Source: Schizochytrium sp. TIO01 | Lineage: Eukaryota; Sar; Bigyra; Thraustochytrida; Thraustochytriidae | Assembly: GCA_004764695.1 (NCBI GenBank) | Contig: SMSO01000016.1 | Location: 1-44,277, forward strand | Reading direction: 5' to 3' | DNA: 44,277 bases | Shown: piece by piece, positions 1-44,277 of the stretch | Layout of the letters: each line of letters opens with the position of its first letter | Numbering within the stretch: position 1 is the first letter of the stretch | The notes under the pieces: model-generated | Told to the model about the DNA's origin: nothing | The model's input: the letters and a program-made list of their open reading frames with translations, nothing else | Database searches by the model: none | Made by a program: the position numbers and the translations under genes

Positions 1-106
1 AGGTTGCGCACAGAAAGTAGGTTTGGAAGTTTGGGGAAGAATTGTAATAATATACTATTAAGAGATTAATAATATGTTAAAATAAAAATTTAGGTTGCAC
101 GAGGTT
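1..106. repeat. Partial composite-repeat spacer at left window edge
   Basis: The first 106 bases match, with several small indels, the last part of the spacer that recurs between 101-bp arrays on the right side (for example 35299-35404). The window opens on the last three bases of the long spacer hairpin's 3' arm. The contig was therefore cut inside the repeat region rather than at a natural gene boundary. Confidence 0.85.
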
Positions 107-3100
107 CTTGAAGTTTTTGGCTAGCTCCATGCTTATAGAAGGAGGATTTTCGGACTTTGGCCCCTCTTCAGTTTTACTGTTACCGGAGTCCGTGCACGAG
201 GTTTGAAGTTTTTGGGCTAGCTCCATGCTTATAGAAGGAGGATTTTCGACTTTGGCCCCTCCTTCCAGTTTTACTGTTACCGGAGGTCCGTGCACGAGGT
301 TCTTGAAGTTTTTGGCTAGCTCATGCTTATAGAAGGAGGATTTTCGACTTTGGCCCCTCCTTCAGTTTTACTGTTACCGGAGGTCGTACGAGGTTCTTGA
401 AGTTTTTGGCTAGCTCATGCTTTAGAAGGAGGATTTTCGGACTTTGGCCTCTTCCAGTTTACTGTTACCGGAGTCGTGCACGAGGTTCTTGAAGTTTTTG
501 GGCTAGGCTCCATGCTTATTAGAAGGAGGATTTTCGGACTTTGGCCCCTCCTTCCAGTTTTACTGTTACCCGGAGGGTTGCCGTGCTAACGAGGTTCTTG
601 AAGCCTTTTTTTGGGCTAGCTCACCCTGGCTTTATAGAAGGAGGATTTTCGGACTTTGGGCCCGCTCCTTCCAGTTTTACTGTTTCGAAACGTGGAGGTC
701 CGTGCACGGCAAACCTTCCTTGAGCTTTTTGGGCTTGAGCTTCCTGAGGTTATGCTTATAGAAGGAGGGATTTTCGGACTTTGGCCGCCTCCTTCCAGTT
801 TTTAGTTAGCGGAGGTCCGTTGCATCGAGGTTCTTGAAGTTTTTGGGGCTAGCTCTCATGCTTATAAGAAGGAGGATTTTTCGACTTTGGCCCTCTTCCT
901 AGTTTTTACTGTTACAAGAGGAAGGTCGTGACGGGGTTGAAGTTCAGGCAAGGAGGTTCGTTGCCTTGTTTTAACTGTTGAGGTCCCTGCACATTTTGAA
1001 TAGCTCCTAATGCTATATAGAAGGAGGATTTTCGGACTTTGGCCTCCTTCAGTTTTACTGTTACGGAGGTCGTGCACGAGGTTCTTGAAGTTTTTGGGCT
1101 AGCTCCATGCTTATAGAAGGAGGATTTTCGGACTTTGGCCCTCTTCCAGTTTTACTGTTACCGGAGGTCTGCACGAGGTTCTTGAAGTTTTTGGGCTAGC
1201 TCCATGCTTATAGAAGGAGGATTTTCGGACTTTGGCTCCTTCCAGTTTTACTGTTACCGAGGTCCGTGCACGAGGTTCTTGAAGTTTTTGGGCTAGCTCC
1301 ATGCTTATAGAAGGAGGATTTTCGGACTTTGGCCCTCCTTCCAGTTTTACTGTTACCGGAGGTCGTGCACGAGGTTCTTGAAGTTTTGGGCTAGCTCCAT
1401 GCTTATAGAAGGAGGATTTTGGACTTTGGCCCTCCTTCCAGTTTTACTGTTACGGAGGTCCGTGCACGAGTTCTTGAAGTTTTGGGCTAGCTCCATGCTT
1501 ATAGAAGGAGGATTTTGGACTTTGGCCCTGCTTCCAGTTTTAACTGTTACCGCGGAAGGTGCGTGCACGGAGGGTTCTTGAAGTTTTGTGGGCTAGCTCC
1601 ATGCTTATAGAAGGAGGATTTTCGCTTTGGCCCTCCTTCCAGTTTTACTGTTCCGGAGGTCCGTGCACGAGGTTCTGAAGTTTTTTGGGCTAGCTCATGC
1701 TTATAGAGGAGGATTTTTCCGGACTTGGGCCCCTCCTTCCAGTTTTTAATCTGTTTTACGGAGGTCCGTGCACGGAGGTTCTTGGAAGTTTTTGGGCTAG
1801 TCTATGCTTTATAGAAGGAGGATTTTCGGACTTTGGCCCTCCTTCCAGTTTACCTGTTACGGTGGGAGTGCCGTGCACGAGGTTTGAAGTTTTTGGGCTA
1901 TCTCCAGTGTTATAGAAGGAGGATTTTCGGACTTTTGCCTCCTTCCAGTTTTACCTGTTACCGGGAGGTCCGTGCACGAGGTTCTTGAAGTTTTTGGGCT
2001 AGCTCCATGCTTATAGAAGGAGGATTTTCGGACTTTGGCCCCTCCTTCCAGTTTTACTGTTACCGGAGGTCCGTGCACCGAGGTTCTTGAAGTTTTTGGG
2101 CTAGCTCCATGCTTATAGAAGGAGGATTTTCGGACTTTGGCCCCTCCTTCCAGTTTACTGTTACCAGGAGGTCCGTGCACGAGGTTCTTGAAGTTTTTGG
2201 GCTAGCTCCATGCTTATAGCAGGAGGATTTTCGGACTTTGGCCCCTCCTTCCAGTTTTACTGTACCCGGAGGTCCGTGCACGAGGTTCTTGAAGTTTTTG
2301 GGCTAGCTCATGCTTATAGAAGGAGGATTTTCGGACTTTGGCCCTCCTTCCAGTTTTACTGTTACCGGAGGTCCGTGCACGAGGTTCTTGAAGTTTTTGG
2401 GCTAGCTCCATGCTTATAGAAGGAGGATTTTCGGACTTTGGGCCCCTCCTTCCAGTTTTACTGTTACCGGAGGTCCGTGCACGAGGTTCTTGAAGTTTTT
2501 GGGCTAGCTCCATGCTTATAGAAGGAGGATTTTCGACTTTGGCCCTCCTTCCAGTTTTACTGTTTACATGGAGGAGGTCGTGACGAGGTTCTTAAGTTTG
2601 GCTAGCTCATGCTTATAGAAAGGTTTCGGACTTTGCCTCCTCCAGTTTAGTTACGGAGTCGTGCCGATTTGGAGTTTTGGCTAGCTCATGCTGTATTATA
2701 GAAGGAAGGATTTTTCGGACTTTGGGCCCTCTTCCAGTTTTACTGTTACCGAGGTCCGTGCACGAGGTTCTTGAAGTTTTGGCTAGCCTCCATGGCTTAT
2801 AGAAGGAAGGATTTTCGAAAACTTTGGCCCTCCTTCCAGTTTTACTGTTACCGAGGTCCCGTGCACGAGGTTCTTTGAAGTTTTTGGCTAGCTCCATGCT
2901 TATAGAAGGAGGATTTCGGACCTTGGCCCGTCCTTCCAGTTTTACTGTTTACCGGGAGTCCAAGTGCACGAGGTTCTTGAAGTTTCTTGGGCTAGCCTCC
3001 ATGTTTTTAGAAGGAGGGATTTTCGGGACTGTGGCCCCTCCTTCCCAGTTTTTACTTTACCGGAGGTCCCGTGCATCGAGGTTGCTTGAAGTTTTTGGGC

Positions 3101-4188
3101 TAGCTCCATGCTTATAGAAGGAGGAATTTTCGGACTTTGGCCCTCCTTCCAGTTTTACTGTTACCGGAGGTCCGTGCACGAGGTTCTTGAAGTTTTTGGG
3201 CTAGCTCCATGCTTATAGAAGGAGGATTTTCGGACTTTGGCCCCTCCTTCCAGTTTTACTGTTACCGGAGGTCCGTGCACGAGGTTCTTGAAGTTTTTGG
3301 GCTAGCTCCATGCTTATAGAAGGAGGATTTTCGGACTTTGGCCCCTCCTTCCAGTTTTACTGTTACCGGAGGTCCGTGCACGAGGTTCTTGAAGTTTTTG
3401 GGCTAGCTCCATGCTTATAGAAGGAGGATTTTCGGACTTTGGCCCCTCCTTCCAGTTTTACTGTTACCGGAGGTCCGTGCACGAGGTTCTTGAAGTTTTT
3501 GGGCTAGCTCCATGCTTATAGAAGGAGGATTTTCGGACTTTGGCCCCTCCTTCCAGTTTTACTGTTACCGGAGGTCCGTGCACGAGGTTCTTGAAGTTTT
3601 TGGGCTAGCTCCATGCTTATAGAAGGAGGATTTTCGGACTTTGGCCCCTCCTTCCAGTTTTACTGTTACCGGAGGTCCGTGCACGAGGTTCTTGAAGTTT
3701 TTTGGGCTAGCTCCATGCTTATAGAAGGAGGATTTTCGGACTTTGGCCCCTCCTTCCAGTTTTACTGTTACCGGAGGTCCGTGCACGAGGTTCTTGAAGT
3801 TTTTGGGCTAGCTCCATGCTTATAGAAGGAGGATTTTCGGACTTGGCCCCTCCTTCCAGTTTTACTGTTACCGGAGGTCCGTGCACGAGGTTCTTGAAGT
3901 TTTTGGGCTAGCTCCATGCTTATAGAAGGAGGATTTTCGGACTTTGGCCCCTCCTTCCAGTTTTACTGGTTACCCGGAGGTCCGTGCACGAGGTTCTTGA
4001 AAGTTTTTGGGCTAGCTCATGCTTATAGAAGGAGGATTTTCGGACTTTGGCCCTCCTTCCAGTTTTACTGTTACCGGAGGTCCGTGCACGAGGTTCTTGA
4101 AGTTCAGGTTTTTGGGCCTAAGCCTCCATCGCCTTATACCAAGGAGGATTTTCGGACTTTTGGCCCACCTCCTTCGCAGTTTAATGTT
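107..4188. repeat. Left tandem array of ~101-bp units (about 40 copies)
   Basis: The unit is the same 101-bp sequence as in the right-hand arrays, recognisable by GCTTATAGAAGGAGG and CTTTGGCCCCTCCTTCC. An internal inverted repeat, GAAGGAGG with CCTCCTTC, could form an 8-bp hairpin in each unit. From about 107 to 3100 nearly every copy has one or more single-base gains or losses. From about 3150 to 3960 the copies are almost perfect, and the last one or two before 4189 are degraded again. Small ORFs on both strands here are repeat artefacts without conserved domains. No gene is seen. Confidence 0.95.
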
Positions 4189-4242
4189 GGGTACTTTGTA
4201 TAGAGCGTGTATATCAAAACGGGTTCGATTCCCGTTCTACCC
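4189..4242 (+). other. tRNA-like minihelix, left boundary copy (acceptor stem + T arm only)
   Basis: GGGTA at the 5' end pairs with TACCC at the 3' end, enclosing a T arm with stem ACGGG/CCCGT and loop TTCGATT. The 20-odd bases between acceptor strand and T arm cannot hold a D arm plus an anticodon arm. It is the divergent, slightly longer relative of the 50-nt element at 34829 and in every right-hand composite repeat. It marks the boundary between the left array and single-copy DNA. The class is described under findings. Confidence 0.6.
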
Positions 4243-4244
4243 CT

Positions 4245-4264
4245 GAGGCAAAGTAAAATGCCTC
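4245..4264 (+). other. Hairpin directly after the tRNA-like element
   Basis: GAGGCA and TGCCTC form a perfect 6-bp stem around an 8-base A-rich loop, starting two bases after the minihelix. The same hairpin with a slightly different loop follows each right-hand copy (34880-34900 is the first). The fixed pairing of minihelix plus hairpin suggests a processing or transcript-end signal; that role is inferred. Confidence 0.6.
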
Positions 4265-4315
4265 TTATTCGTTTTTAATAAATATTCGTCTTAATTAGTA
4301 ATATAATTAATTCCA

Positions 4316-4469
4316 GAAGCCGAAGGTTCGCCCCACTATTCTCGACATAGAGCAAGATCACGCCGCTACGGAGGAGAGTGTCTTGTAATAGAATACAGCT
4401 GGGACCGCTACTGGACTGTTCAACAGGTTCAGATGCCATAAGCGGGGGTTCGACTTCCCCTGGGCTTCA
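4316..4469 (+). ncRNA. Possible mitochondrial tmRNA-like RNA (ssrA candidate)
   Basis: About 154 bases are bounded by tRNA-like ends. The 5' GAAGCCGA pairs with the 3' TGGGCTTC (seven of eight positions), with a following A as discriminator. A T arm GGGGG-TTCGACT-TCCCC sits directly inside the 3' end. After the 5' acceptor strand comes AAGGTTCG, resembling the GGNTTCGA of the tmRNA D-analogue. The interior folds into at least two hairpins: CAAGA/TCTTG with CAC/GTG, and CTGGAC/GTTCAG around TTCAA. Mitochondrial tmRNAs without a message domain are known from jakobids and oomycetes. I could not find a clear P2 helix, so another structured RNA, including 5S rRNA, is not excluded. Confidence 0.35.
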
Positions 4470-5816
4470 GTATCTAGTTTTTCTAAAATAGCCTTTTTAG
4501 CTGAAAAAGTTTACCATAAGTAATTTAATTGAATGAGAAGGTATCATTATGGTAAGCGCGAAAAAAGGAAGGATTGCCGCATAGGTTTCTCAGCTTATGC
4601 GTTGGTATTGCGTTTCTCAAGTGAACTAGTGTATAAACTCTTTATAATAAGGCTTAACAAGACCTAAAACCAGCAAAGATTTAAAAAAAAATTTCTAACG
4701 AAGATGAAGATAGGGTGGCCCACGCCAATGCGCGCAGTAGTTAGAGAGGTAGTAGTTTATTCAATGCTATCGAATTGCGGCAAGGATCATATCTCCTTGC
4801 TAGTAATGGGGAACCGGAGTGGTGTCAGTGCACTTGCCCTAATAAGGCAGTGAGATCGAATGAAATAACTTAGCTGGCATACTCGTATGGGAGGAAGTGT
4901 TGTTTGAGGCATGGAATTCAAGTGCGAGGCAAAGTGATGAAACGAAGTCTGCTTTGCTAGCCAATTCGTAGTATTTTCGTATGCGGATTAGACCTATTGA
5001 ATGAAAGTTTGAGAAAGTCGTCGCGAGGGTACGCGAGTTATATTATATCTAGAGCGAGACGCTTGTCCTAATTCTTTCTAGGCAAGTGGATTGCAAGGTT
5101 GGGGTGTCAAGAAGTTCATGGTAGTTGGAGAGGAGTGTGTGATGTAGTAGTCACCGGTATGCTTGTAGGAGAGTAACTTTTATTATATGGAGAATTCTAG
5201 CAAAAGGAGGGGAGCAGCTTGTATGAGGGTTGTTTTTACTTGTTTGTGATGTCGGATAGGGCGATCTATCTACGTGAGTTGTTCACTTTGTGAGCGACAA
5301 GAGTACCATACGGTATCGAGTCCTGTTTGGGATGTAGTTTTTTTGGTTATTTTATGCGGTTTTGTTTAGAGAAAGTTTATGTGTTGGAAGACGCAGCTTT
5401 ATTAGATTGATTTTGTTAATTCTAATTAATTAGTAATCTTGGTATTTATGAAAAGGGAGTTTAAAAGAGTGGTAAAAAGAAAGGTATGCATTATAAAGTG
5501 AAATAAAGCTTGGTTAGTAATGCGCAGCTAGCTGAGTGGAGTTTCGTGCGCAGCTTTATATGTATGTCTGGAATTATACTACGAATTTATACTTCGTTAG
5601 AGTAGAGACGGGTGAAAGTTATGATGGTTTCAAATTAATCGAACAGGTTGTTGTTGGATAGCCTTAAAGGAGTATCTATCTAAACTAATTATATGCCATT
5701 TAAATGAAATTCCTTACGGGTGTCTTGTGTGTGAAAGCCAAGGCTAGCCTTTGTGTTAGCTTGGTTTATTACAGTAATCGTTATTATACGTATTTTGTAT
5801 TCAATTCTATTTGTGG
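4470..5816 (+). other. 1.35-kb non-coding, hairpin-rich region of unknown function
   Basis: No ORF of note on either strand, and the sequence is visibly richer in G and C than neighbouring genes. Local inverted repeats run the whole length: 4511-4519/4547-4555 (TTACCATAA), 4578-4583/4596-4601 (CGCATA), 4780-4786/4794-4800 (GCAAGGA), 4831-4838/4846-4852, 4929-4934/4952-4957 (GCAAAG), 5021-5025/5032-5036 (TCGCG), 5062-5070/5079-5086, 5581-5585/5593-5597 (ACGAA) and 5738-5746/5757-5764. This looks like a long structured RNA or a worn intron. A GTGCGAG at 4923 recalls a group II 5' end, but I found no domain V and no maturase, so no class is assigned. Confidence 0.5.
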
Positions 5817-8078: not shown

Positions 8079-8522
8079 ATGTGTTCACTTCGTCCTAAAC
8101 GTATAAAATTTGCAAAGTATCAGCGAGGTCGTCTTAAGTGTTCTTCACCGGGTATTCAAGATCTACTTGCTACAAATTTGCCTTCTTTTACTTTGATTTC
8201 AACTGAATCTTGTTACGTTACGAATAATCATCTTAGCGTAGCTATTAAGCTAATCAAGAAAAAGCTAGTTCGTAAAGGAATTCTTCGTTTGCACGTATTT
8301 CCTGATAAACCTTTTACGTCTAAAAGTATTGGTGCTCGAATGGGTAAAGGTAAGGGTGCTATCTCCATTTGGAAAGCTAAAGTGTCTCCTGGTTCTGTTA
8401 TCTTTTCTATTTCTGGGGTTTCTGAAACTATCGTAGTAGATGCTTTTAATTCTATATCTAAAAAATTTCCCTGTTCAGTAAAAGTTGTAAAACGTAATTT
8501 TCCAGCCTCATTCTTATATTAA
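8079..8522 (+). CDS. rpl16: Large-subunit ribosomal protein uL16
   Basis: uL16 sits near the A site and 5S region of the large subunit. The 147-residue protein begins RPKRIKFAKYQRGRLKC, the basic N-terminus of the family. Its core has KSIGARMGKGKGAISIWKAKVSPG, the near-invariant RMGKGKG loop, followed by the VIFSISGV strand. The length fits the family (about 136-140). It closes the rpl2-rps19-rps3-rpl16 cluster. A 50-nt tRNA-like element lies between its stop and nad7. Confidence 0.95.
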   Translation: MCSLRPKRIKFAKYQRGRLKCSSPGIQDLLATNLPSFTLISTESCYVTNNHLSVAIKLIKKKLVRKGILRLHVFPDKPFTSKSIGARMGKGKGAISIWKAKVSPGSVIFSISGVSETIVVDAFNSISKKFPCSVKVVKRNFPASFLY

Positions 8523-8541: not shown

Positions 8542-8591
8542 AGTGGTACTCGTAGTATTATATAAATAGGGGTTCAATTCCCTTTGCCACT
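8542..8591 (+). other. 50-nt tRNA-like minihelix between rpl16 and nad7
   Basis: AGTGGTA pairs fully with TGCCACT (one G-T pair) as a 7-bp acceptor stem. The T arm is AGGGG-TTCAATT-CCCTT. Only 19 bases join the two, too few for D and anticodon arms, and no anticodon hairpin is visible. The length and arm spacing equal those of the element at 34829, and both linkers contain TATATAAA. It lies where a tRNA would normally separate two genes, so a role as an RNase P/RNase Z cleavage signal is the simplest inference. Confidence 0.65.
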
Positions 8592-12350: not shown

Positions 12351-12409
12351 TTTTATTTTATTATATAGTTTACATTTTTTTAGTATTTATTAAATACTAT
12401 TTAATATTT

Positions 12410-13728: not shown

Positions 13729-13827
13729 ATAAATAAATTTTAATTATAATATCTTTGTATAAAGAAACATTCGGAAACTTTATACTTTTACTTTTTTAAA
13801 TACTACTCAGGGAATCAAAAAAAGTTT

Positions 13828-15626: not shown

Positions 15627-15671
15627 ACGGGGGTTTCGGTTAATTAAAAAGGTTCAAGTCCTTTTCCTCGT
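15627..15671 (+). other. 45-nt tRNA-like minihelix between rps4 and rps8
   Basis: ACGGGGG pairs with TCCTCGT (7 bp, two G-T), and a T arm AAAGG-TTCAAGT-CCTTT lies directly inside. Only 14 bases link the acceptor strand to the T arm, so D and anticodon arms are absent. It belongs by structure to the class at 8542 and 34829, although the linker sequence differs. It is placed exactly between a stop codon and the leader of the next gene. Confidence 0.55.
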
Positions 15672-17691: not shown

Positions 17692-17982
17692 ATGATTCGT
17701 GGTTATTTTCAACTTTATAGTTTTAAATCTATACCTTCTTCTGTTAAACAAAAAAAGGTATTCACTTTTAACAAATCTCATCATGTAAATAAAAAATCTA
17801 AGACATCCGCAAGTCTTGTTTTTTATAAAACTAAAGCATCTTCACTTCATACATTTAGTTCGTGGTCAGATATAAAAAATTTTTATATTTATCAAGCACT
17901 TTCTATTTTTTCTAAAAAAATTACTTTTAGTTTTCGTATGAAAGTGGTTGCTTGCCCTTATAGTTTAATGGTTAGAACATAG
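17692..17982 (+). CDS. rps10: Small-subunit ribosomal protein uS10 (3' end doubtful)
   Basis: uS10 belongs to the small-subunit head. The 96-codon frame contains KKVFTFNKSHHVNKKSKTSA, matching the FTVL-SPHVNKKSREQFE strand and loop of S10, followed by a divergent C-terminal half (KNFYIYQALSIFSKKITFSF). The last dozen codons run 29 bases into trnE and use TTA (17965) and AGA (17974), both avoided elsewhere. One T fewer in the run 17931-17934 would give a TGA stop at about 17940, a normal place for S10 to end. Confidence 0.75.
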   Translation: MIRGYFQLYSFKSIPSSVKQKKVFTFNKSHHVNKKSKTSASLVFYKTKASSLHTFSSWSDIKNFYIYQALSIFSKKITFSFRMKVVACPYSLMVRT

Positions 17983-19697: not shown

Positions 19698-20471
19698 ATG
19701 CTTTTTACTTTGTTTGGTTATTGTGATGCTGCTACTCCATGGCAATTCGGATTTCAAGACCCTGCTACTCCTATCGCAGAAGGTATTATTCGATTTCATC
19801 ACGATTTGATGTTTATTATGGTTTTTGTTGTAGTTTTTGTTTTTTGGATGCTTACTCGTATCGTAATGCATTTCAACGTAAAAACCAACCCTAACCCTTC
19901 AGCTGTAGTTCACGGAACTACTATTGAAATTATTTGGACTTTGATTCCTGCAGTTCTTCTTATGATTATTGCAGTTCCTTCTTTTGCTCTTCTATACTCT
20001 GTAGATGAAGTAGTAGATCCCTCTGTTACTTTGAAAGTTATTGGGCATCAATGGTATTGGTCATACGAATACTCTGACTATGAAAATGAAGATGGAGAAA
20101 ATCTAGTTTTCGATTCTTACATGTTGCCTGATGATGAATTGTCTTTGGGAGATTTGCGAATGTTGGAAGTAGATAACCGTGTAGTATTGCCTGTTGATAC
20201 TCATGTTCGTCTTATTGTAACCAGTGCTGATGTGCTACATTCTTGGACTGTACCGTCTTTTGGAGTTAAAATGGATGCTTGCCCTGGTCGTCTTAACGAA
20301 GCTAGTTTGTTTATTCAACGTCCTGGTGTTTTTTATGGTCAATGTAGTGAAATTTGTGGTGTAAACCATGGATTTATGCCTATCGCAGTAGAAGCTTTGA
20401 AACTAGAAGATTACGTTTCTTGGGTAGCTGCTAAACTAGAAGACGCTTTATTTTTAGTATATGTATCTTAG
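19698..20471 (+). CDS. cox2: Cytochrome c oxidase subunit II
   Basis: Cox2 carries the CuA centre that accepts electrons from cytochrome c. Two N-terminal membrane helices are followed by the cupredoxin domain with [14 protein letters not shown], the [14 protein letters not shown] segment and the CuA ligands in [17 protein letters not shown]. It starts at ATG 19698; the frame upstream lies in trnN. The tail after AAKLEDA uses TTA twice (20448, 20454) and overlaps tatA by 11 bases. One T fewer at 20447-20449 would stop the gene at TAG before tatA. The main body (257 residues as read) is normal length. Confidence 0.97.
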
Positions 20472-20604
20472 CTTTTTTCAAATTTGTTTTGTTGTACTTA
20501 TCGCTTTTTTGCTTTTTGGTAATTCTAATAATCTTATTAAAACATTTAAAAAGAATATTAAAAATATTCAAAAAGAATTTCAAAAAAAAGAATTACAACA
20601 TTTC

Positions 20605-30817: not shown

Positions 30818-31353
30818 TGTTTCGTTTTAATCAATTTTATTCACGTGTAGTAAAAAAAGATCTAATATCTTCTATAAAATCAAAGCATTTTTCGTTGCAA
30901 TCGCAAGTAAGTTTGAAATCTTTTGATTTTAATAAGGATCTTTTTGGTTCTTGTTGGCTTTTGATAGAATTTATATCATTGCGAAAACCTACACTACTTT
31001 ATTCTAAAAAAGATGTTGCTCGTTTGAAATTGCGTCGAGGTCAATTTGTTTCATTTTCTTCTTCTTTTTCGTTTGAGCAAACTATATCTTTTTTGAATTA
31101 TTTGTTCACCTTTTATTGTATGTACTCAAATAATGCCTTGGCATTTCTATTTAAACGTGAACATTCTTCTTCTAGGTATGTTGCTGATATTAAGACTATA
31201 AATATTTATAGTATTGAAAATGAGAGTGATCGTTTTAAATCATTGATTAACGAAGCTTTTTCAGTTCAACTATTCCATTCGTCTATTTCTACAAAAGAAT
31301 TTTCTTTTTTTATAAATAGCCTTCAAATTAATTCTACTTATGATTCAATTTAA
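30817..31353 (+). CDS. rpl5: Large-subunit ribosomal protein uL5
   Basis: uL5 contacts the central protuberance. The 178-residue protein is divergent but keeps WLLIEFISLRKPTLLYSKKDVARLKLRRGQFVSFSSSF, corresponding to the L5 block iTGQKPxxTxAKKSIAxFKLREG, followed by the TISFLNYLFTF helix. It starts on the last base of the rpl14 stop and overlaps rps13 by 14 bases. Confidence 0.87.
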   Translation: MFRFNQFYSRVVKKDLISSIKSKHFSLQSQVSLKSFDFNKDLFGSCWLLIEFISLRKPTLLYSKKDVARLKLRRGQFVSFSSSFSFEQTISFLNYLFTFYCMYSNNALAFLFKREHSSSRYVADIKTINIYSIENESDRFKSLINEAFSVQLFHSSISTKEFSFFINSLQINSTYDSI

Positions 31354-31696
31354 AAAAGATCTTATAAAAAGTAAAATCTTCTTTGCATCTGTTTTGTCTA
31401 CTATTTACGGCATTGGTCCTCATTTGAGCAAACGTATTTGTGTTTCATGTGGTATTTTGTCGCAAACTCCTGCTTATATAGTTACCTCTACTCAACAAAA
31501 TCAAGTACTTAATTGGATTGAAAAAAATCTTCTTGATGATTATAAAATAGAGGCAAATTTGCGTAAATATATTAAAGATAATAAACTTTTGCATATGAAA
31601 ATAAAAAGTTATAAAGGATTTCGATATTCTTCTAATTTGCCTGTTCGAGGGCAACGTACTAAAACAAATGCTAAAACAGTAAAAAAAATTCGTTAA
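31340..31696 (+). CDS. rps13: Small-subunit ribosomal protein uS13
   Basis: uS13 bridges the subunits from the small-subunit head. The 118-residue protein has the helix-two-turn-helix segment STIYGIGPHLSKRICVSCGI and the C-terminal basic tail HMKIKSYKGFRYSSNLPVRGQRTKTNAKTVKKIR, matching YRGxRHxxGLPVRGQRTxTNARTRKG. Length is normal. It starts within rpl5 and is followed by rps11 after two bases, the bacterial alpha-operon order. Confidence 0.96.
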   Translation: MIQFKKDLIKSKIFFASVLSTIYGIGPHLSKRICVSCGILSQTPAYIVTSTQQNQVLNWIEKNLLDDYKIEANLRKYIKDNKLLHMKIKSYKGFRYSSNLPVRGQRTKTNAKTVKKIR

Positions 31697-31698
31697 AT

Positions 31699-32040
31699 AT
31701 GTTTTCTATCTATATTAATAGTTCTTTTAATAATACCCATCTATCCATTTATTATAATAAACGAATAGTTTTTAAAGCTTCATCTGGTATGTCTTCTATT
31801 CGGGGGAGTTTTAAAAAAAATTCAAATATGTCTCTTATTATGTTGGGTGTGCACGCTGCAAATTTTTTGGAAAGTTTTTTCAACGGTAAACCCCGTATCA
31901 TTTTTTATTTTTCTGGATTGGGGAAAGGTAAATTTTATATTTTGAAAGCTTTTCAAAAATTTCAAATTGAACATTGTTATTTTAGTGCGTCTGTTCCTTT
32001 TAACGGGTGTCGTCAAAAGAAAAAAAGGCGTCTTTTATAA
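31699..32040 (+). CDS. rps11: Small-subunit ribosomal protein uS11
   Basis: uS11 lies on the small-subunit platform. The 113-residue protein has NSSFNNTHLSIY, the SSGMSSIRGSFKKNSNMS block, AANFLESFF, GLGKGKFYILKAFQ, and the C-terminal signature VPFNGCRQKKKRRLL, corresponding to TPxPHNGCRPPKKRR. The N-terminal extension of bacterial S11 is missing. The last codon before TAA is the rare TTA. Confidence 0.95.
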   Translation: MFSIYINSSFNNTHLSIYYNKRIVFKASSGMSSIRGSFKKNSNMSLIMLGVHAANFLESFFNGKPRIIFYFSGLGKGKFYILKAFQKFQIEHCYFSASVPFNGCRQKKKRRLL

Positions 32041-32047
32041 CATATTG

Positions 32048-32132
32048 GGCAAATGTCTGAGTGGTTTAAGGTTCCAGTCTTGAAAACTGGTAAGAATCGT
32101 ATTCTTCGCAGGTTCGAATCCTGCTTTGCCCG
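32048..32132 (+). tRNA. trnS: tRNA-Ser(UGA)
   Basis: Class II tRNA. Acceptor GGGCAAA/TTTGCCC, anticodon stem CCAGT/ACTGG around CTTGAAA (TGA), long variable arm, T arm GCAGG-TTCGAAT-CCTGC, discriminator G. It reads UCN. Confidence 0.95.
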
Positions 32133-32146
32133 TATCTTTTTTATTC

Positions 32147-34114
32147 ATGTATTTCTCGATTGTTTTGTTTCCATTTTTGGGATCCGTTTTGGCAGGTATA
32201 GGAGGGCGCCTTTTGGGGCGTAATGGTTCTGTTATCATCAGTACCAGTTCTGTTCTAGTCTCATGTATTTTGTCTTGGTACGTATTTTTTTCATTTCTGT
32301 TTTCTCCTATAAGTATCCATTTTCAACTTTGGCCTTGGATAGAAGTAGGTTCATTTAATGTTCAATGGGGGTTTTTGTTTGATAGTTTGACTGCTACTAT
32401 GTTGATCGTAGTTTGTTCTGTTTCTCTATTGGTTCATATCTATTCTTCTTCATACATAGAAGAAGACCCTCACCTACCCCGTTTTATAAGTTATTTGTCA
32501 TTGTTTACCTTTTTTATGCTAATCTTGGTAACTGCAAACAACTTTATTCAAATATTTGTGGGTTGGGAAGGTGTTGGTTTGTGTAGTTATCTTCTTATTA
32601 ATTTTTGGTTTACTCGAATCCAAGCAAATAAAGCTGCTATTAAAGCTATGTTTATAAATCGTATCGGAGACTATGGTTTGGCTCTCGGAATTTTCGCTAT
32701 CTATTTTTCTGTAGGTTCTATCGATTATGCTACTGTGTTTTCTTGTGTACCTTCATTGGTAGGTACAAAAATTTATCTTTTTTGGTTTTCTATCGATACT
32801 ATCACCGCTATTAGTTTGCTACTTTTTGTAGGAGCTGTTGGTAAATCAGCGCAGCTAGGGTTGCATACTTGGTTGCCTGACGCTATGGAAGGTCCAACTC
32901 CTGTTTCTGCACTAATTCACGCTGCAACTATGGTTACCGCAGGTGTTTTTCTTCTCGCAAGGTGTTCTTCTTTTATTGAATTTTCTCCATTTGCGTTGCA
33001 AGTAATCACCGTTTTTGGTGCTTCTACTGCTTTTTTTGCAGCTACTACTGGATTGTTGCAAAATGATTTGAAAAAAGTTATTGCATATTCTACTTGTTCT
33101 CAGTTGGGTTACATAGTATTTGCTTGTGGCCTTTCTTCTTACCAAGTTGGTGTTTTTCATCTAGCTAACCACGCTTTTTTTAAAGCTTTGTTGTTTTTGT
33201 GTGCTGGTTCAGTTATTCATGCTATAGGAGATGAACAAGATATGCGAAAAATAGGAGGTCTTGCCAAATTGCTGCCCTTTACTTATAGTTCTATAATGAT
33301 TGGTTCTTTGGCTCTTGCTGGTTTTCCTTTTCTTTCAGGATTTTATTCAAAAGATGTTATTCTTGAAAATGCTTATGGTTCATTTTCTTCTACAGGTCAC
33401 TTCGCTTTTATTTTGGGAAGTATGGCTGCTTTTTGTACATCTTTTTATTCTATTCGTTTGTTGTATCTTACCTTTTTGTCTCCTGTAAATGGTTTTCGAA
33501 GGAGGTTTGAAAATGTACATGAGTCTCCATTTCGTATAGCATTTCCTCTTTTTGTTTTGATTTTTGGAAGTGTTTTCTTTGGTTATCTTTTTAAAGATGC
33601 TATTATTGGAGTAGGAAGTTCTTTTTTTAATCATGCTCTATTCGTAGCTCCAAATCATTTGAATGTATTTTTTGGAGAGTTTTTGCCAACTTCAATTAAA
33701 TTGTTTCCTACTATACTAGCGTTTTTGGGTATGATCTCATCATTCATCTTTTATAAGTATAATTCAATTTATTTGTTTAATATAAAACAACATTATATTG
33801 GGCGTTCACTTTATATTTTTTTTAATAAAAAATGGTTTTTTGATAAAGTGTATACCGAAATAGTGGGTCAATCCGGTTTGCGATTCGCTTATGATATTTC
33901 ATACCGTTTGCTAGATCGAGGTATTCTTGAAATCTTGGGACCTTTTGGGCTAAGTCATACCATTAGTTCTATTAATTTTTCTCGTTTTAGTTCAGGTCAT
34001 CTGTTTCATTATATATTTGTAATTTTGTTTTTTATTTGTGCTTATTCATGCTTTCTATTTTTTTCTATTTCTCCTTTGTTCTTTTTTATTTTTCTATGTC
34101 TTGCTATTGTTTAA
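32147..34114 (+). CDS. nad5: NADH dehydrogenase subunit 5
   Basis: Distal antiporter-like pump subunit of complex I, with the long lateral helix at its C-terminus. The 655-residue protein carries FVGWEGVGLCSYLLINFW, TRIQANKAAIKAMFINRIGDYG, GAVGKSAQLGLHTWLPDAMEGPTPVSALIHAATMV, and the distal KKVIAYSTCSQLGYIVFACG. The ATG at 32147 gives the normal N-terminus MYFSIVLFPFLGS; in-frame codons upstream lie in trnS. Length is normal, with no intron. Confidence 0.98.
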   Translation: MYFSIVLFPFLGSVLAGIGGRLLGRNGSVIISTSSVLVSCILSWYVFFSFLFSPISIHFQLWPWIEVGSFNVQWGFLFDSLTATMLIVVCSVSLLVHIYSSSYIEEDPHLPRFISYLSLFTFFMLILVTANNFIQIFVGWEGVGLCSYLLINFWFTRIQANKAAIKAMFINRIGDYGLALGIFAIYFSVGSIDYATVFSCVPSLVGTKIYLFWFSIDTITAISLLLFVGAVGKSAQLGLHTWLPDAMEGPTPVSALIHAATMVTAGVFLLARCSSFIEFSPFALQVITVFGASTAFFAATTGLLQNDLKKVIAYSTCSQLGYIVFACGLSSYQVGVFHLANHAFFKALLFLCAGSVIHAIGDEQDMRKIGGLAKLLPFTYSSIMIGSLALAGFPFLSGFYSKDVILENAYGSFSSTGHFAFILGSMAAFCTSFYSIRLLYLTFLSPVNGFRRRFENVHESPFRIAFPLFVLIFGSVFFGYLFKDAIIGVGSSFFNHALFVAPNHLNVFFGEFLPTSIKLFPTILAFLGMISSFIFYKYNSIYLFNIKQHYIGRSLYIFFNKKWFFDKVYTEIVGQSGLRFAYDISYRLLDRGILEILGPFGLSHTISSINFSRFSSGHLFHYIFVILFFICAYSCFLFFSISPLFFFIFLCLAIV

Positions 34115-34131
34115 TAAAATTAACAAGGATT

Positions 34132-34827: not shown

Positions 34828-34828
34828 T

Positions 34829-34878
34829 GGGTAGCTTTGGTATAAGTATATAAAATGGGTTCAATTCCCATTCTACCC
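34829..34878 (+). other. 50-nt tRNA-like minihelix, first right-hand copy
   Basis: GGGTAG pairs with CTACCC as acceptor stem; the T arm is ATGGG-TTCAATT-CCCAT; the linker is 19 bases. Eight further copies head the composite repeats (starts 35060, 35791, 36724, 37556, 38489, 39220, 40355, 41389). There the T stem is ACGGG/CCTGT with loop TTCGATT. Between the two versions the second T-stem pair changes from T-A to C-G, a compensatory double change, and the third from G-C to G-T. Every copy is followed two bases later by the GAGGCA/TGCCTC hairpin. Confidence 0.65.
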
Positions 34879-35059
34879 TGAGGCAGGGTAAAAATGCCTC
34901 TTATTTGTTCTATCTTAGTGTGAGAAGCTAACTATTACAGAGAATAAGTGTTTAAATGATAAAATTTAGGTTGCACGAGGTTCTTGAAGTTTTGGAGCTA
35001 GCTCCATGCTTATAGAAGGAGGATTTTCGAACTTTGGCCCCTCCTTTCAATTTTTATGT
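34829..35059. repeat. Short composite repeat copy lacking the 197-bp module
   Basis: It contains the minihelix, the hairpin, a shortened spacer and one 101-bp unit (231 bp total). It equals a full composite minus a segment of 197 bp. That segment is bounded in the full copies by the direct repeat TGTTTAAATG, of which this copy keeps one. It forms the junction between single-copy DNA and the long right array. Confidence 0.85.
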
Positions 35060-38000
35060 GGGTAGCTTTGGTATATGTATATAAAACGGGTTCGATTCCT
35101 GTTCTACCCTGAGGCAGGGTAAAAATGCCTCTTATTTGTTCTATCTTAGTGTGAGAAGCTAACTATTACAGAGAATAAGTGTTTAAATGGGGTTAATATC
35201 GATGACGCTAGAGTTAATTTCCATTTTAGACACTGTACCTCCTTTCTAGCTATCCTCTACACCTCCTCTGACGCAGGTTCACGGAGGAGGAGGTGTAGAG
35301 GTTGCGCACAGAAAGTAGGGTTTGGAAGTTTGGGGAAGAATATGTAAATAATATACCTATTCAGAGATTAATAATATGTTTAAATGATAAAATTTAGGTT
35401 GCACGAGGTTCTTGAAGTTTTTGGGCTAGCTCCATGCTTATAGAAGGAGGATTTTCGGACTTTGGCCCCTCCTTCCAGTTTTACTGTTACCGGAGGTCCG
35501 TGCACGAGGTTCTTGAAGTTTTTGGGCTAGCTCCATGCTTATAGAAGGAGGATTTTCGGACTTTGGCCCCTCCTTCCAGTTTTACTGTTACCGGAGGTCC
35601 GTGCACGAGGTTCTTGAAGTTTTTGGGCTAGCTCCATGCTTATAGAAGGAGGATTTTCGGACTTTGGCCCCTCCTTCCAGTTTTACTGTTATAGGAGGTC
35701 CGTGCACGAGGTTCTTGAAGTTTTGGAGCTAGCTCCATGCTTATAGAAGGAGGATTTTCGGACTTTGGCCCCTCCTTCCAATTTTTATGTGGGTAGCTTT
35801 GGTATATGTATATAAAACGGGTTCGATTCCTGTTCTACCCTGAGGCAGGGTAAAAATGCCTCTTATTTGTTCTATCTTAGTGTGAGAAGCTAACTATTAC
35901 AGAGAATAAGTGTTTAAATGGGGTTAATATCGATGACGCTAGAGTTAATTTCCATTTTAGACACTGTACCTCCTTTCTAGCTATCCTCTACACCTCCTCT
36001 GACGCAGGTTCACGGAGGAGGAGGTGTAGAGGTTGCGCACAGAAAGTAGGGTTTGGAAGTTTGGGGAAGAATATGTAAATAATATACCTATTCAGAGATT
36101 AATAATATGTTTAAATGATAAAATTTAGGTTGCACGAGGTTCTTGAAGTTTTTGGGCTAGCTCCATGCTTATAGAAGGAGGATTTTCGGACTTTGGCCCC
36201 TCCTTCCAGTTTTACTGTTACCGGAGGTCCGTGCACGAGGTTCTTGAAGTTTTTGGGCTAGCTCCATGCTTATAGAAGGAGGATTTTCGGACTTTGGCCC
36301 CTCCTTCCAGTTTTACTGTTACCGGAGGTCCGTGCACGAGGTTCTTGAAGTTTTTGGGCTAGCTCCATGCTTATAGAAGGAGGATTTTCGGACTTTGGCC
36401 CCTCCTTCCAGTTTTACTGTTACCGGAGGTCCGTGCACGAGGTTCTTGAAGTTTTTGGGCTAGCTCCATGCTTATAGAAGGAGGATTTTCGGACTTTGGC
36501 CCCTCCTTCCAGTTTTACTGTTACCGGAGGTCCGTGCACGAGGTTCTTGAAGTTTTTGGGCTAGCTCCATGCTTATAGAAGGAGGATTTTCGGACTTTGG
36601 CCCCTCCTTCCAGTTTTACTGTTATAGGAGGTCCGTGCACGAGGTTCTTGAAGTTTTGGAGCTAGCTCCATGCTTATAGAAGGAGGATTTTCGGACTTTG
36701 GCCCCTCCTTCCAATTTTTATGTGGGTAGCTTTGGTATATGTATATAAAACGGGTTCGATTCCTGTTCTACCCTGAGGCAGGGTAAAAATGCCTCTTATT
36801 TGTTCTATCTTAGTGTGAGAAGCTAACTATTACAGAGAATAAGTGTTTAAATGGGGTTAATATCGATGACGCTAGAGTTAATTTCCATTTTAGACACTGT
36901 ACCTCCTTTCTAGCTATCCTCTACACCTCCTCTGACGCAGGTTCACGGAGGAGGAGGTGTAGAGGTTGCGCACAGAAAGTAGGGTTTGGAAGTTTGGGGA
37001 AGAATATGTAAATAATATACCTATTCAGAGATTAATAATATGTTTAAATGATAAAATTTAGGTTGCACGAGGTTCTTGAAGTTTTTGGGCTAGCTCCATG
37101 CTTATAAAAGGAGGATTTTCGGACTTTGGCCCCTCCTTCCAGTTTTACTGTTACCGGAGGTCCGTGCACGAGGTTCTTGAAGTTTTTGGGTTAGCTCCAT
37201 GCTTATAGAAGGAGGATTTTCGGACTTTGGCCCCTCCTTCCAGTTTTACTGTTACCGGAGGTCCGTGCACGAGGTTCTTGAAGTTTTTGGGCTAGCTCCA
37301 TGCTTATAGAAGGAGGATTTTCGGACTTTGGCCCCTCCTTCCAGTTTTACTGTTACCGGAGGTCCGTGCACGAGGTTCTTGAAGTTTTTGGGCTAGCTCC
37401 ATGCTTATAGAAGGAGGATTTTCGGACTTTGGCCCCTCCTTCCAGTTTTACTGTTATAGGAGGTCCGTGCACGAGGTTCTTGAAGTTTTGGAGCTAGCTC
37501 CATGCTTATAGAAGGAGGATTTTCGGACTTTGGCCCCTCCTTCCAATTTTTATGTGGGTAGCTTTGGTATATGTATATAAAACGGGTTCGATTCCTGTTC
37601 TACCCTGAGGCAGGGTAAAAATGCCTCTTATTTGTTCTATCTTAGTGTGAGAAGCTAACTATTACAGAGAATAAGTGTTTAAATGGGGTTAATATCGATG
37701 ACGCTAGAGTTAATTTCCATTTTAGACACTGTACCTCCTTTCTAGCTATCCTCTACACCTCCTCTGACGCAGGTTCACGGAGGAGGAGGTGTAGAGGTTG
37801 CGCACAGAAAGTAGGGTTTGGAAGTTTGGGGAAGAATATGTAAATAATATACCTATTCAGAGATTAATAATATGTTTAAATGATAAAATTTAGGTTGCAC
37901 GAGGTTCTTGAAGTTTTTGGGCTAGCTCCATGCTTATAGAAGGAGGATTTTCGGACTTTGGCCCCTCCTTCCAGTTTTACTGTTACCGGAGGTCCGTGCA

Positions 38001-41000
38001 CGAGGTTCTTGAAGTTTTTGGGCTAGCTCCATGCTTATAGAAGGAGGATTTTCGGACTTTGGCCCCTCCTTCCAGTTTTACTGTTACCGGAGGTCCGTGC
38101 ACGAGGTTCTTGAAGTTTTTGGGCTAGCTCCATGCTTATAGAAGGAGGATTTTCGGACTTTGGCCCCTCCTTCCAGTTTTACTGTTACCGGAGGTCCGTG
38201 CACGAGGTTCTTGAAGTTTTTGGGCTAGCTCCATGCTTATAGAAGGAGGATTTTCGGACTTTGGCCCCTCCTTCCAGTTTTACTGTTACCGGAGGTCCGT
38301 GCACGAGGTTCTTGAAGTTTTTGGGCTAGCTCCATGCTTATAGAAGGAGGATTTTCGGACTTTGGCCCCTCCTTCCAGTTTTACTGTTATAGGAGGTCCG
38401 TGCACGAGGTTCTTGAAGTTTTGGAGCTAGCTCCATGCTTATAGAAGGAGGATTTTCGGACTTTGGCCCCTCCTTCCAATTTTTATGTGGGTAGCTTTGG
38501 TATATGTATATAAAACGGGTTCGATTCCTGTTCTACCCTGAGGCAGGGTAAAAATGCCTCTTATTTGTTCTATCTTAGTGTGAGAAGCTAACTATTACAG
38601 AGAATAAGTGTTTAAATGGGGTTAATATCGATGACGCTAGAGTTAATTTCCATTTTAGACACTGTACCTCCTTTCTAGCTATCCTCTACACCTCCTCTGA
38701 CGCAGGTTCACGGAGGAGGAGGTGTAGAGGTTGCGCACAGAAAGTAGGGTTTGGAAGTTTGGGGAAGAATATGTAAATAATATACCTATTCAGAGATTAA
38801 TAATATGTTTAAATGATAAAATTTAGGTTGCACGAGGTTCTTGAAGTTTTTGGGCTAGCTCCATGCTTATAGAAGGAGGATTTTCGGACTTTGGCCCCTC
38901 CTTCCAGTTTTACTGTTACCGGAGGTCCGTGCACGAGGTTCTTGAAGTTTTTGGGCTAGCTCCATGCTTATAGAAGGAGGATTTTCGGACTTTGGCCCCT
39001 CCTTCCAGTTTTACTGTTACCGGAGGTCCGTGCACGAGGTTCTTGAAGTTTTTGGGCTAGCTCCATGCTTATAGAAGGAGGATTTTCGGACTTTGGCCCC
39101 TCCTTCCAGTTTTACTGTTATAGGAGGTCCGTGCACGAGGTTCTTGAAGTTTTGGAGCTAGCTCCATGCTTATAGAAGGAGGATTTTCGGACTTTGGCCC
39201 CTCCTTCCAATTTTTATGTGGGTAGCTTTGGTATATGTATATAAAACGGGTTCGATTCCTGTTCTACCCTGAGGCAGGGTAAAAATGCCTCTTATTTGTT
39301 CTATCTTAGTGTGAGAAGCTAACTATTACAGAGAATAAGTGTTTAAATGGGGTTAATATCGATGACGCTAGAGTTAATTTCCATTTTAGACACTGTACCT
39401 CCTTTCTAGCTATCCTCTACACCTCCTCTGACGCAGGTTCACGGAGGAGGAGGTGTAGAGGTTGCGCACAGAAAGTAGGGTTTGGAAGTTTGGGGAAGAA
39501 TATGTAAATAATATACCTATTCAGAGATTAATAATATGTTTAAATGATAAAATTTAGGTTGCACGAGGTTCTTGAAGTTTTTGGGCTAGCTCCATGCTTA
39601 TAGAAGGAGGATTTTCGGACTTTGGCCCCTCCTTCCAGTTTTACTGTTACCGGAGGTCCGTGCACGAGGTTCTTGAAGTTTTTGGGCTAGCTCCATGCTT
39701 ATAGAAGGAGGATTTTCGGACTTTGGCCCCTCCTTCCAGTTTTACTGTTATAGGAGGTCCGTGCACGAGGTTCTTGAAGTTTTTGGGCTAGCTCCATGCT
39801 TATAGAAGGAGGATTTTCGGACTTTGGCCCCTCCTTCCAGTTTTACTGTTACCGGAGGTCCGTGCACGAGGTTCTTGAAGTTTTTGGGTTAGCTCCATGC
39901 TTATAGAAGGAGGATTTTCGGACTTTGGCCCCTCCTTCCAGTTTTACTGTTACCGGAGGTCCGTGCACGAGGTTCTTGAAGTTTTTGGGCTAGCTCCATG
40001 CTTATAGAAGGAGGATTTTCGGACTTTGGCCCCTCCTTCCAGTTTTACTGTTACCGGAGGTCCGTGCACGAGGTTCTTGAAGTTTTTGGGCTAGCTCCAT
40101 GCTTATAGAAGGAGGATTTTCGGACTTTGGCCCCTCCTTCCAGTTTTACTGTTACCGGAGGTCCGTGCACGAGGTTCTTGAAGTTTTTGGGCTAGCTCCA
40201 TGCTTATAGAAGGAGGATTTTCGGACTTTGGCCCCTCCTTCCAGTTTTACTGTTATAGGAGGTCCGTGCACGAGGTTCTTGAAGTTTTGGAGCTAGCTCC
40301 ATGCTTATAGAAGGAGGATTTTCGGACTTTGGCCCCTCCTTCCAATTTTTATGTGGGTAGCTTTGGTATATGTATATAAAACGGGTTCGATTCCTGTTCT
40401 ACCCTGAGGCAGGGTAAAAATGCCTCTTATTTGTTCTATCTTAGTGTGAGAAGCTAACTATTACAGAGAATAAGTGTTTAAATGGGGTTAATATCGATGA
40501 CGCTAGAGTTAATTTCCATTTTAGACACTGTACCTCCTTTCTAGCTATCCTCTACACCTCCTCTGACGCAGGTTCACGGAGGAGGAGGTGTAGAGGTTGC
40601 GCACAGAAAGTAGGGTTTGGAAGTTTGGGGAAGAATATGTAAATAATATACCTATTCAGAGATTAATAATATGTTTAAATGATAAAATTTAGGTTGCACG
40701 AGGTTCTTGAAGTTTTTGGGCTAGCTCCATGCTTATAGAAGGAGGATTTTCGGACTTTGGCCCCTCCTTCCAGTTTTACTGTTACCGGAGGTCCGTGCAC
40801 GAGGTTCTTGAAGTTTTTGGGCTAGCTCCATGCTTATAGAAGGAGGATTTTCGGACTTTGGCCCCTCCTTCCAGTTTTACTGTTATAGGAGGTCCGTGCA
40901 CGAGGTTCTTGAAGTTTTTGGGCTAGCTCCATGCTTATAGAAGGAGGATTTTCGGACTTTGGCCCCTCCTTCCAGTTTTACTGTTACCGGAGGTCCGTGC

Positions 41001-41388: not shown

Positions 41389-44277
41389 GGGTAGCTTTGG
41401 TATATGTATATAAAACGGGTTCGATTCCTGTTCTACCCTGAGGCAGGGTAAAAATGCCTCTTATTTGTTCTATCTTAGTGTGAGAAGCTAACTATTACAG
41501 AGAATAAGTGTTTAAATGGGGTTAATATCGATGACGCTAGAGTTAATTTCCATTTTAGACACTGTACCTCCTTTCTAGCTATCCTCTACACCTCCTCTGA
41601 CGCAGGTTCACGGAGGAGGAGGTGTAGAGGTTGCGCACAGAAAGTAGGGTTTGGAAGTTTGGGGAAGAATATGTAAATAATATACCTATTCAGAGATTAA
41701 TAATATGTTTAAATGATAAAATTTAGGTTGCACGAGGTTCTTGAAGTTTTTGGGCTAGCTCCATGCTTATAGAAGGAGGATTTTCGGACTTTGGCCCCTC
41801 CTTCCAGTTTTACTGTTACCGGAGGTCCGTGCACGAGGTTCTTGAAGTTTTTGGGCTAGCTCCATGCTTATAGAAGGAGGATTTTCGGACTTTGGCCCCT
41901 CCTTCCAGTTTTACTGTTACCGGAGGTCCGTGCACGAGGTTCTTGAAGTTTTTGGGCTAGCTCCATGCTTATAGAAGGAGGATTTTCGGACTTTGGCCCC
42001 TCCTTCCAGTTTTACTGTTACCGGAGGTCCGTGCACGAGGTTCTTGAAGTTTTTGGGCTAGCTCCATGCTTATAGAAGGAGGATTTTCGGACTTTGGCCC
42101 CTCCTTCCAGTTTTACTGTTACCGGAGGTCCGTGCACGAGGTTCTTGAAGTTTTTGGGCTAGCTCCATGCTTATAGAAGGAGGATTTTCGGACTTTGGCC
42201 CCTCCTTCCAGTTTTACTGTTACCGGAGGTCCGTGCACGAGGTTCTTGAAGTTTTTGGGCTAGCTCCATGCTTATAGAAGGAGGATTTTCGGACTTTGGC
42301 CCCTCCTTCCAGTTTTACTGTTACCGGAGGTCCGTGCACGAGGTTCTTGAAGTTTTTGGGCTAGCTCCATGCTTATAGAAGGAGGATTTTCGGACTTTGG
42401 CCCCTCCTTCCAGTTTTACTGTTACCGGAGGTCCGTGCACGAGGTTCTTGAAGTTTTTGGGCTAGCTCCATGCTTATAGAAGGAGGATTTTCGGACTTTG
42501 GCCCCTCCTTCCAGTTTTACTGTTACCGGAGGTCCGTGCACGAGGTTCTTGAAGTTTTTGGGCTAGCTCCATGCTTATAGAAGGAGGATTTTCGGACTTT
42601 GGCCCCTCCTTCCAGTTTTACTGTTACCGGAGGTCCGTGCACGAGGTTCTTGAAGTTTTTGGGCTAGCTCCATGCTTATAGAAGGAGGATTTTCGGACTT
42701 TGGCCCCTCCTTCCAGTTTTACTGTTACCGGAGGTCCGTGCACGAGGTTCTTGAAGTTTTTGGGCTAGCTCCATGCTTATAGAAGGAGGATTTTCGGACT
42801 TTGGCCCCTCCTTCCAGTTTTACTGTTACCGGAGGTCCGTGCACGAGGTTCTTGAAGTTTTTGGGCTAGCTCCATGCTTATAGAAGGAGGATTTTCGGAC
42901 TTTGGCCCCTCCTTCCAGTTTTACTGTTACCGGAGGTCCGTGCACGAGGTTCTTGAAGTTTTTGGGCTAGCTCCATGCTTATAGAAGGAGGATTTTCGGA
43001 CTTTGGCCCCTCCTTCCAGTTTTACTGTTACCGGAGGTCCGTGCACGAGGTTCTTGAAGTTTTTGGGCTAGCTCCATGCTTATAGAAGGAGGATTTTCGG
43101 ACTTTGGCCCCTCCTTCCAGTTTTACTGTTACCGGAGGTCCGTGCACGAGGTTCTTGAAGTTTTTGGGCTAGCTCCATGCTTATAGAAGGAGGATTTTCG
43201 GACTTTGGCCCCTCCTTCCAGTTTTACTGTTACCGGAGGTCCGTGCACGAGGTTCTTGAAGTTTTTGGGCTAGCTCCATGCTTATAGAAGGAGGATTTTC
43301 GGACTTTGGCCCCTCCTTCCAGTTTTACTGTTACCGGAGGTCCGTGCACGAGGTTCTTGAAGTTTTTGGGCTAGCTCCATGCTTATAGAAGGAGGATTTT
43401 CGGACTTTGGCCCCTCCTTCCAGTTTTACTGTTACCGGAGGTCCGTGCACGAGGTTCTTGAAGTTTTTGGGCTAGCTCCATGCTTATAGAAGGAGGATTT
43501 TCGGACTTTGGCCCCTCCTTCCAGTTTTACTGTTACCGGAGGTCCGTGCACGAGGTTCTTGAAGTTTTTGGGCTAGCTCCATGCTTATAGAAGGAGGATT
43601 TTCGGACTTTGGCCCCTCCTTCCAGTTTTACTGTTACCGGAGGTCCGTGCACGAGGTTCTTGAAGTTTTTGGGCTAGCTCCATGCTTATAGAAGGAGGAT
43701 TTTCGGACTTTGGCCCCTCCTTCCAGTTTTACTGTTACCGGAGGTCCGTGCACGAGGTTCTTGAAGTTTTTGGGCTAGCTCCATGCTTATAGAAGGAGGA
43801 TTTTCGGACTTTGGCCCCTCCTTCCAGTTTTACTGTTACCGGAGGTCCGTGCACGAGGTTCTTGAAGTTTTTGGGCTAGCTCCATGCTTATAGAAGGAGG
43901 ATTTTCGGACTTTGGCCCCTCCTTCCAGTTTTACTGTTACCGGAGGTCCGTGCACGAGGTTCTTGAAGTTTTTGGGCTAGCTCCATGCTTATAGAAGGAG
44001 GATTTTCGGACTTTGGCCCCTCCTTCCAGTTTTACTGTTACCGGAGGTCCGTGCACGAGGTTCTTGAAGTTTTTGGGCTAGCTCCATGCTTATAGAAGGA
44101 GGATTTTCGGACTTTGGCCCCTCCTTCCAGTTTTACTGTTACCGGAGGTCCGTGCACGAGGTTCTTGAAGTTTTTGGGCTAGCTCCATGCTTATAGAAGG
44201 AGGATTTTCGGACTTTGGCCCCTCCTTCCAGTTTTACTGTTACCGGAGGTCCGTGCACGAGGTTCTTGAAGTTTGTT
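41389..44277. repeat. Last composite with an open-ended array of at least 25 units
   Basis: After one more minihelix and full spacer, the 101-bp unit repeats from about 41730 to the window end: 25 complete copies plus a part. The copies appear identical and all carry the GTTACCGGAGG form. No terminal variant unit is reached. The last seven bases depart from the unit, probably a contig-end effect. If the molecule is circular, the array should continue to another minihelix and the first part of a spacer before joining position 1. Confidence 0.93.

Follow-up and report, generated by a model that had tools for sequence, protein, structure and literature searches.

The window, as we call the whole stretch of DNA analysed, starts with the first base of contig C15 in a 64-Mb eukaryotic assembly of 37 contigs and is 44,277 bases long. 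Its content is a mitochondrial genome, for which rnl, rns, 21 tRNAs and approximately 35 protein genes were annotated. When the genes were read with table 4, they overlapped tRNAs, and TTA was confined to the 3' ends of reading frames or their vicinity; these gene maps were dropped for NCBI table 23 (TTA as stop), and the tRNA overlaps they had given were false. With table 23, 15 of the 35 genes end in TTA and most overlaps are gone, while all coding sequences of window 5811-34599 together contain no internal TTA in 7,565 codons, no AGA and 27 uses of AGG. TTA as a stop is a known peculiarity of Thraustochytrium aureum mtDNA (AF288091; PMC5203790), and the published mitogenome of Schizochytrium sp. 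TIO1101 (KU183024) has 21 tRNAs, TTA stops, an rps19 of 165 bp and a nad5 of 1968 bp (PMC7799850), the latter two being exactly the lengths found in the window. The algal mitochondrion assumed in the original prediction was thus not borne out; since TTA serves only as stop and the TIO1101 traits (21 tRNAs, rps19 and nad5 lengths) are matched, the host is a thraustochytrid close to Schizochytrium/Aurantiochytrium. A eustigmatophyte or pelagophyte host was rejected on the basis of the TTA usage. No trnR or trnT gene was found in the mtDNA, although CGN (216 codons) and ACN (314 codons) are used, and import of tRNA-Arg and tRNA-Thr is implied by these common codons.

A second assembly of the same circle, contig C37 (41,662 bp, its ends joining at window 29319/29320), allowed the window to be controlled. 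From 4170 to 29319 the two differ at 17 sites, all of them indels and 12 of them inside 4176-4243, while window 31022-35300 is identical in C37. One extra C in C37 was seen in trnD (window 29066). Window 1-4250 is a noisy 101-bp tandem array with many indels, and C15, which extends beyond the window and carries the mtDNA repeatedly, is an over-assembled concatemer, C37 being the cleaner circle. An apparent 150-nt tRNA-like fold at 4312-4472 was gone after correction with the C37 sequence. Window 4480-5800, some 1.3 kb in length, contains no long reading frame and may be an unrecognised structured RNA or a remnant, and an Rfam search of the 4171-5810 region revealed no mitochondrial tmRNA or other Rfam RNA. 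Two small open reading frames (17695-17967 and 20461-20595) resemble rps10 and tatA by eye, without a Pfam match.

In a scan of both strands, we looked for TTCRANT loops on a 5-bp T stem that adjoins a 7-nt acceptor strand without any spacer. Every match was on the + strand: besides the 21 tRNAs, these were the elements M1 and M2, the R copies and a weak alternative at 4425. The same scan yielded zero minihelices on the - strand (Table 1).

Table 1. Minihelix elements and the hairpin accompanying the R copies (window positions).
Feature	Position	Strand	Length	Structure	Surroundings
M1	8542..8591	+	50 nt	acceptor AGTGGTA/TGCCACT; linker 19 nt; T arm AGGGG-TTCAATT-CCCTT	rpl16/nad7 gap; rpl16 stop TTA 8514-8516 upstream, nad7 ATG 8606 downstream
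M2	15627..15671	+	45 nt	acceptor ACGGGGG/TCCTCGT; linker 14 nt; T arm AAAGG-TTCAAGT-CCTTT	rps4/rps8 gap; rps4 stop 15616 upstream, rps8 ATG 15685 downstream
R0	34829..34878	+		acceptor GGGTAG/CTACCC (6 bp), 6-bp T stem; T arm ATGGG-TTCAATT-CCCAT	49 nt past trnC, the final gene ahead of the repeats
R1-type copy 1	35060..35109	+		T arm ACGGG-TTCGATT-CCTGT	
R1-type copy 2	35791..35840	+			
R1-type copy 3	36724..36773	+			
R1-type copy 4	37556..37605	+			
R1-type copy 5	38489..38538	+			
R1-type copy 6	39220..39269	+			
R1-type copy 7	40355..40404	+			
R1-type copy 8	41389..41438	+			
L (left R copy)	4189..4242	+	54 nt in window, with indel errors; 50 nt in C37	in C37: T arm ACGGG-TTCGATT-CCCGT; sequence GGGTAGCTTTGGTATATGTATATAAAACGGGTTCGATTCCCGTTCTACCC	left repeat edge
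Hairpin GAGGCA...TGCCTC	34880..34900	+			one base 3' of R0; also behind other R copies

Minihelices of about 50 nt, each with an acceptor and a T arm carrying a TTCRANT loop, had been predicted and are present as described, the proposed fold being the MFE structure of each element. The stack consists of 7+5 bp in M1 and M2, whereas R, with C x T at acceptor pair 7, has 6+6 bp. The junction between T arm and acceptor is 0 nt in all three independent elements, and all mitochondrial elements share a 12-bp stack and a 7-nt TTCRANT T loop. The linkers, 19 nt in M1 and R and 14 nt in M2, are unpaired in the predicted folds and are indeed too short for D and anticodon arms, but their range of 14-24 nt in the original prediction had to be corrected to 14-19 nt, because the length of the copy at 4189 in the window is an indel error; what had been taken for a longer copy reads 50 nt in C37 and lies where 12 of the 17 differences between the contigs are found. 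A GGT located four to six bases into the linker of R and M2 could imitate the D-loop G18-G19 contact, a thought that stays speculation because M1 has no GGT.

All copies of the predicted set were recovered, and C15 and C37 agree on the sequences of M1, M2, R0 and the eight R1 copies. As independent elements, however, they amount to three types (M1, M2 and R, the latter comprising R0, the eight R1 copies and L) and not to eleven or more, since the repeat copies constitute one family, in which the eight R1-type copies are mutually identical (35060-35109 to 41389-41438). The predicted T-A to C-G double change in the T stem was confirmed within this family (ATGGG/CCCAT in R0 vs ACGGG/CC(T or C)GT in R1 and L), where it is accompanied by one G-C to G-U change. 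Together with the hairpin that follows it, R0 has a folding energy z of -2.22, and a cut after N73 of an R minihelix would leave this hairpin at the 5' end of the downstream RNA.

Junction distances were measured with the table-23 gene boundaries, which gave 21 CDS-CDS junctions. At 19 of these the gap ranges from -14 to 27 nt, and the other two, 89 nt at rpl16/nad7 and 68 nt at rps4/rps8, are occupied by M1 and M2, respectively; the two elements thus lie between protein genes as predicted and fill the only CDS-CDS gaps exceeding 27 nt. From the element to the ATG we counted 14 nt (M1) and 13 nt (M2), as compared to 12-22 nt at 13 tRNA-to-CDS junctions, and from the stop to the element 25 nt (M1) and 10 nt (M2), inside the CDS-to-tRNA range (up to 28 nt). 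A T immediately precedes the 5' edge of every element, as it does in 17 of the 21 tRNAs. Because ATG distance, stop distance and preceding T all match the tRNA junctions, the elements behave as tRNAs in gene spacing, and the claim that they are placed where a tRNA would separate genes holds for the spacing on both sides, the U at N-1 and the pairing pattern. The only other gaps longer than 28 nt are rnl/rns (50 nt) and rns/trnS (91 nt). These contain simple hairpins without a T loop, TAGTATTTATTAAATACTA at 12358-12407 in the former and GTATAAAG/CTTTATAC at 13737-13827 in the latter, which may represent further processing or end signals.

Such elements are poorly explained by chance. Dinucleotide shuffles of the 41.7-kb circle produced 0.035 perfect minihelices per genome (both strands), compared to the two independent ones seen (M1 and M2), and shuffles of the two CDS-CDS gaps gave 5 matches in 40,000. 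The folding energy itself is ordinary (z -0.9 to -1.6), and the evidence is carried by T loop, placement and pairing and not by folding energy. When pairs were counted on the linker-free core of M1, M2, R0, R1 and L, 8 of the 12 pairs were changed on both sides, and 95% of the cells pair, compared to 73% after shuffling and 44-63% with one strand slid. Given that the three types may not share an ancestor, these statistics are to be read as one design met by different sequences, and not as compensations within a lineage. A parent tRNA was also sought for each element among the mitochondrial tRNA cores and none stands out; descent from particular tRNAs is not visible, because no element is closer to one tRNA than the tRNAs are among themselves.

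The age of the elements and the constraint on them can be judged from nuclear copies. A nuclear mtDNA fossil (C24:61680-61875), 94% identical to the M2 locus, holds M2 in its 45-nt form with both stems unchanged, whereas three of the 14 linker bases and one T-loop base differ. M2 is therefore not a recent assembly deletion of a tRNA, and the scenario in which full tRNAs were lost in this way, raised as a caveat to the original prediction, is disfavoured by this fossil as well as by the agreement of both assemblies. In the case of R, a 270-nt part of the mitochondrial repeat unit including the minihelix (window 35011-35281) has ten nuclear relatives of about 89% identity on C34, C7, C5, C23, C18, C8 (two copies), C31, C14 and C24, sitting in a larger nuclear repeat of more than 1.2 kb (six copies read). 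Several of them are near contig ends or on small contigs. The T loop of all ten is TTCTRTT and not TTCRANT, the T-loop purine being lost, and five of the ten have new acceptor mismatches, a decay that appears as expected where the fold is no longer needed. M1 has no copy outside the mtDNA in this assembly. Concerning related mitogenomes, nad7 and nad2 searches of viral contigs found no relative and a cox1 search of the same contigs found five loci of 44-58% identity, while a nad2 search of genome contigs returned bacterial relatives only and no thraustochytrid mitogenome.

These findings bear on the possibility that the elements are decaying pseudogenes of tRNAs that lost their D and anticodon arms by deletion at the junctions and persist without function. 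Such an origin would agree with the tRNA-like positions and with the missing trnR and trnT genes despite the use of CGN and ACN codons, but it would require that three elements lost the same middle and kept 12 paired bases plus an intact T loop, even though decay should strike the stems too, as it did in the nuclear copies. Moreover, dead gaps of 68-89 nt between protein genes are otherwise absent in this compact genome, and the nuclear fossil indicates that the 45-nt M2 is not a fresh deletion, leaving the pseudogene explanation unlikely. It is also quite improbable that the elements are mRNA-stabilising terminal hairpins or transcription or replication signals that resemble a T arm by accident, with the R copies acting in replication or recombination of the repeat region. 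While the R copies are confined to that region and each is followed by the second hairpin GAGGCA/TGCCTC, a plain hairpin needs neither a 7-nt TTCRANT loop nor an exact 12-bp acceptor/T stack, and M1 and M2 are located between genes, distant from the repeats.

A dispersed mobile or repeat element with a tRNA-like head would account for the multicopy nature of R and for the ten nuclear relatives of its 270-nt segment. However, M1, M2 and R agree at only 16-19 of 31 core bases, a similarity not exceeding that between unrelated tRNAs, the R copies multiply with the surrounding repeat unit and not alone, and M1 is confined to the mtDNA, so that we consider this origin very improbable. Finally, radically shortened working tRNAs, as an answer to the missing tRNA genes for Arg and Thr, are hardly credible, since the armless mitochondrial tRNAs of mites and nematodes retain the anticodon arm and an unpaired linker of 14-19 nt cannot hold a 17-nt anticodon arm plus connectors.

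The preferred reading, to which we give a probability of about 0.72, is that the elements are minimal, stripped-down tRNA-like RNA-processing signals in a thraustochytrid mitochondrion. The nuclear genome encodes a 797-aa PRORP (on C31) as well as an RNase Z domain (on C13), and genes for both enzymes that would process an RNase P/RNase Z minihelix are thus present. The first 48 residues of the PRORP are arginine-rich with a single acidic residue and resemble a mitochondrial presequence; a mitochondrial location is predicted only for PRORP. In the mechanism that we infer, the elements would be transcribed inside long precursors, where each would fold into the acceptor/T-arm half of a tRNA. RNase Z would recognise the 3' edge and leave a 13-14-nt leader on nad7 and rps8, mitochondrial PRORP would probably recognise the 5' edge and thereby end the rpl16 and rps4 messages, and the piece of 45-50 nt would be cut out and discarded. 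At the R copies, precursors would be severed on either side of the repeat region as well as inside it.

ELAC2 clamps exactly the acceptor/T-arm minihelix (PMC11996679). Acceptor/T hairpins are also cleaved by Arabidopsis PRORP1, at the tRNA-like site and in a manner that depends on the T loop, but compared to the parental pre-tRNA the rate is approximately 1000- to 2500-fold lower and binding is 200-fold weaker (PMC4975455). By analogy, the 3' cut by the predicted RNase Z appears to be the more secure half of the mechanism, since ELAC2 clamps the minihelix and PRORP1 is slow on such hairpins, while the 5' cut by PRORP is plausible. Because of this low rate, the cut at the 5' edge may be weak, barring some compensation by the PRORP of this species or by the linker. 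As a counterpoint to the elements being signals, the 19 other CDS-CDS junctions do without any such signal.

If the cuts are real, the elements represent a natural case of a tRNA reduced to the part recognised by RNase P and RNase Z, showing processing and decoding to be separable in evolution. They would then also be native substrates of the minihelix type, on which the way a protein-only RNase P measures its target could be tested, and would supply two missing gene ends in the mitogenomes of DHA-producing thraustochytrids. It is conceivable, although doubtful, that import made mitochondrial tRNA genes dispensable for decoding and that thraustochytrid mtDNA retained no more than the half read by the enzymes. 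The elements would then be a natural set of minimal RNase P/RNase Z substrates punctuating the genome, and the PRORP would be adapted to minihelices on which other PRORPs are barely active.

Among the closest known systems, tRNA punctuation in mitochondria agrees with the elements in arrangement, since they match the 21 tRNAs encoded here in position, spacing and orientation; in contrast to these tRNAs, the elements have no anticodon or D arm and hence no decoding role. With the tRNA model (RF00005), M1 scored 12.3 bits and R0 16.8 bits compared to 29, and the anticodon arm is absent in all folds. The same stacked architecture is found in the pATSer acceptor/T-stem model substrates, which PRORP1 cuts at a tRNA-like site (PMC4975455). 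These are artificial and cut about 1000-fold slower than pre-tRNA, whereas the elements described here are natural and have a linker strand of 14-19 nt. We found no description of such a minihelix set in the open-access literature searched, and the published account of the Schizochytrium mitogenome lists 21 tRNA genes but says nothing of minihelices (PMC7799850).

The t-elements of plant mitochondria are tRNA-like and located near mRNA ends, where cuts by RNase P and RNase Z define transcript ends (PMC11658184; PMC8003010), and they are described as tRNA-gene homologues with a typical tRNA-like secondary structure (PMC11658184). M1 and M2 likewise place a tRNA-like fold next to predicted gene termini, 10-25 nt past the stop and 13-14 nt before the ATG. 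Unlike t-elements, they consist of acceptor and T arm only and have no recognisable parent tRNA, the best identity to any mitochondrial tRNA core being 23/31, which is the level between unrelated tRNAs. In Rfam, M1 matched mascRNA-menRNA (RF01684) best, with exactly its own ends and at 19.3 bits (E 0.048), below the gathering cut-off of 42.5 bits, and M2 and R0 had no match to this family. The mascRNA-menRNA family includes the tRNA-like signal that is associated with MALAT1 and is cut by RNase P and RNase Z (PMC11658184). As 3' end signals of MALAT1 and MEN beta, mascRNA and menRNA share with the elements an uncharged, tRNA-like top half with a T loop, but they belong to animal nuclear lncRNAs and span 56 model positions with remnants of the other arms. 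The architecture of the elements would be compatible with release from a longer RNA by RNase P and RNase Z, as in mascRNA-menRNA. Because they are without the middle arms and a recognisable parent tRNA, their sequences suggest that the elements are a variant of the tRNA-like processing-signal kind, outside both the mascRNA-menRNA and the t-element families.
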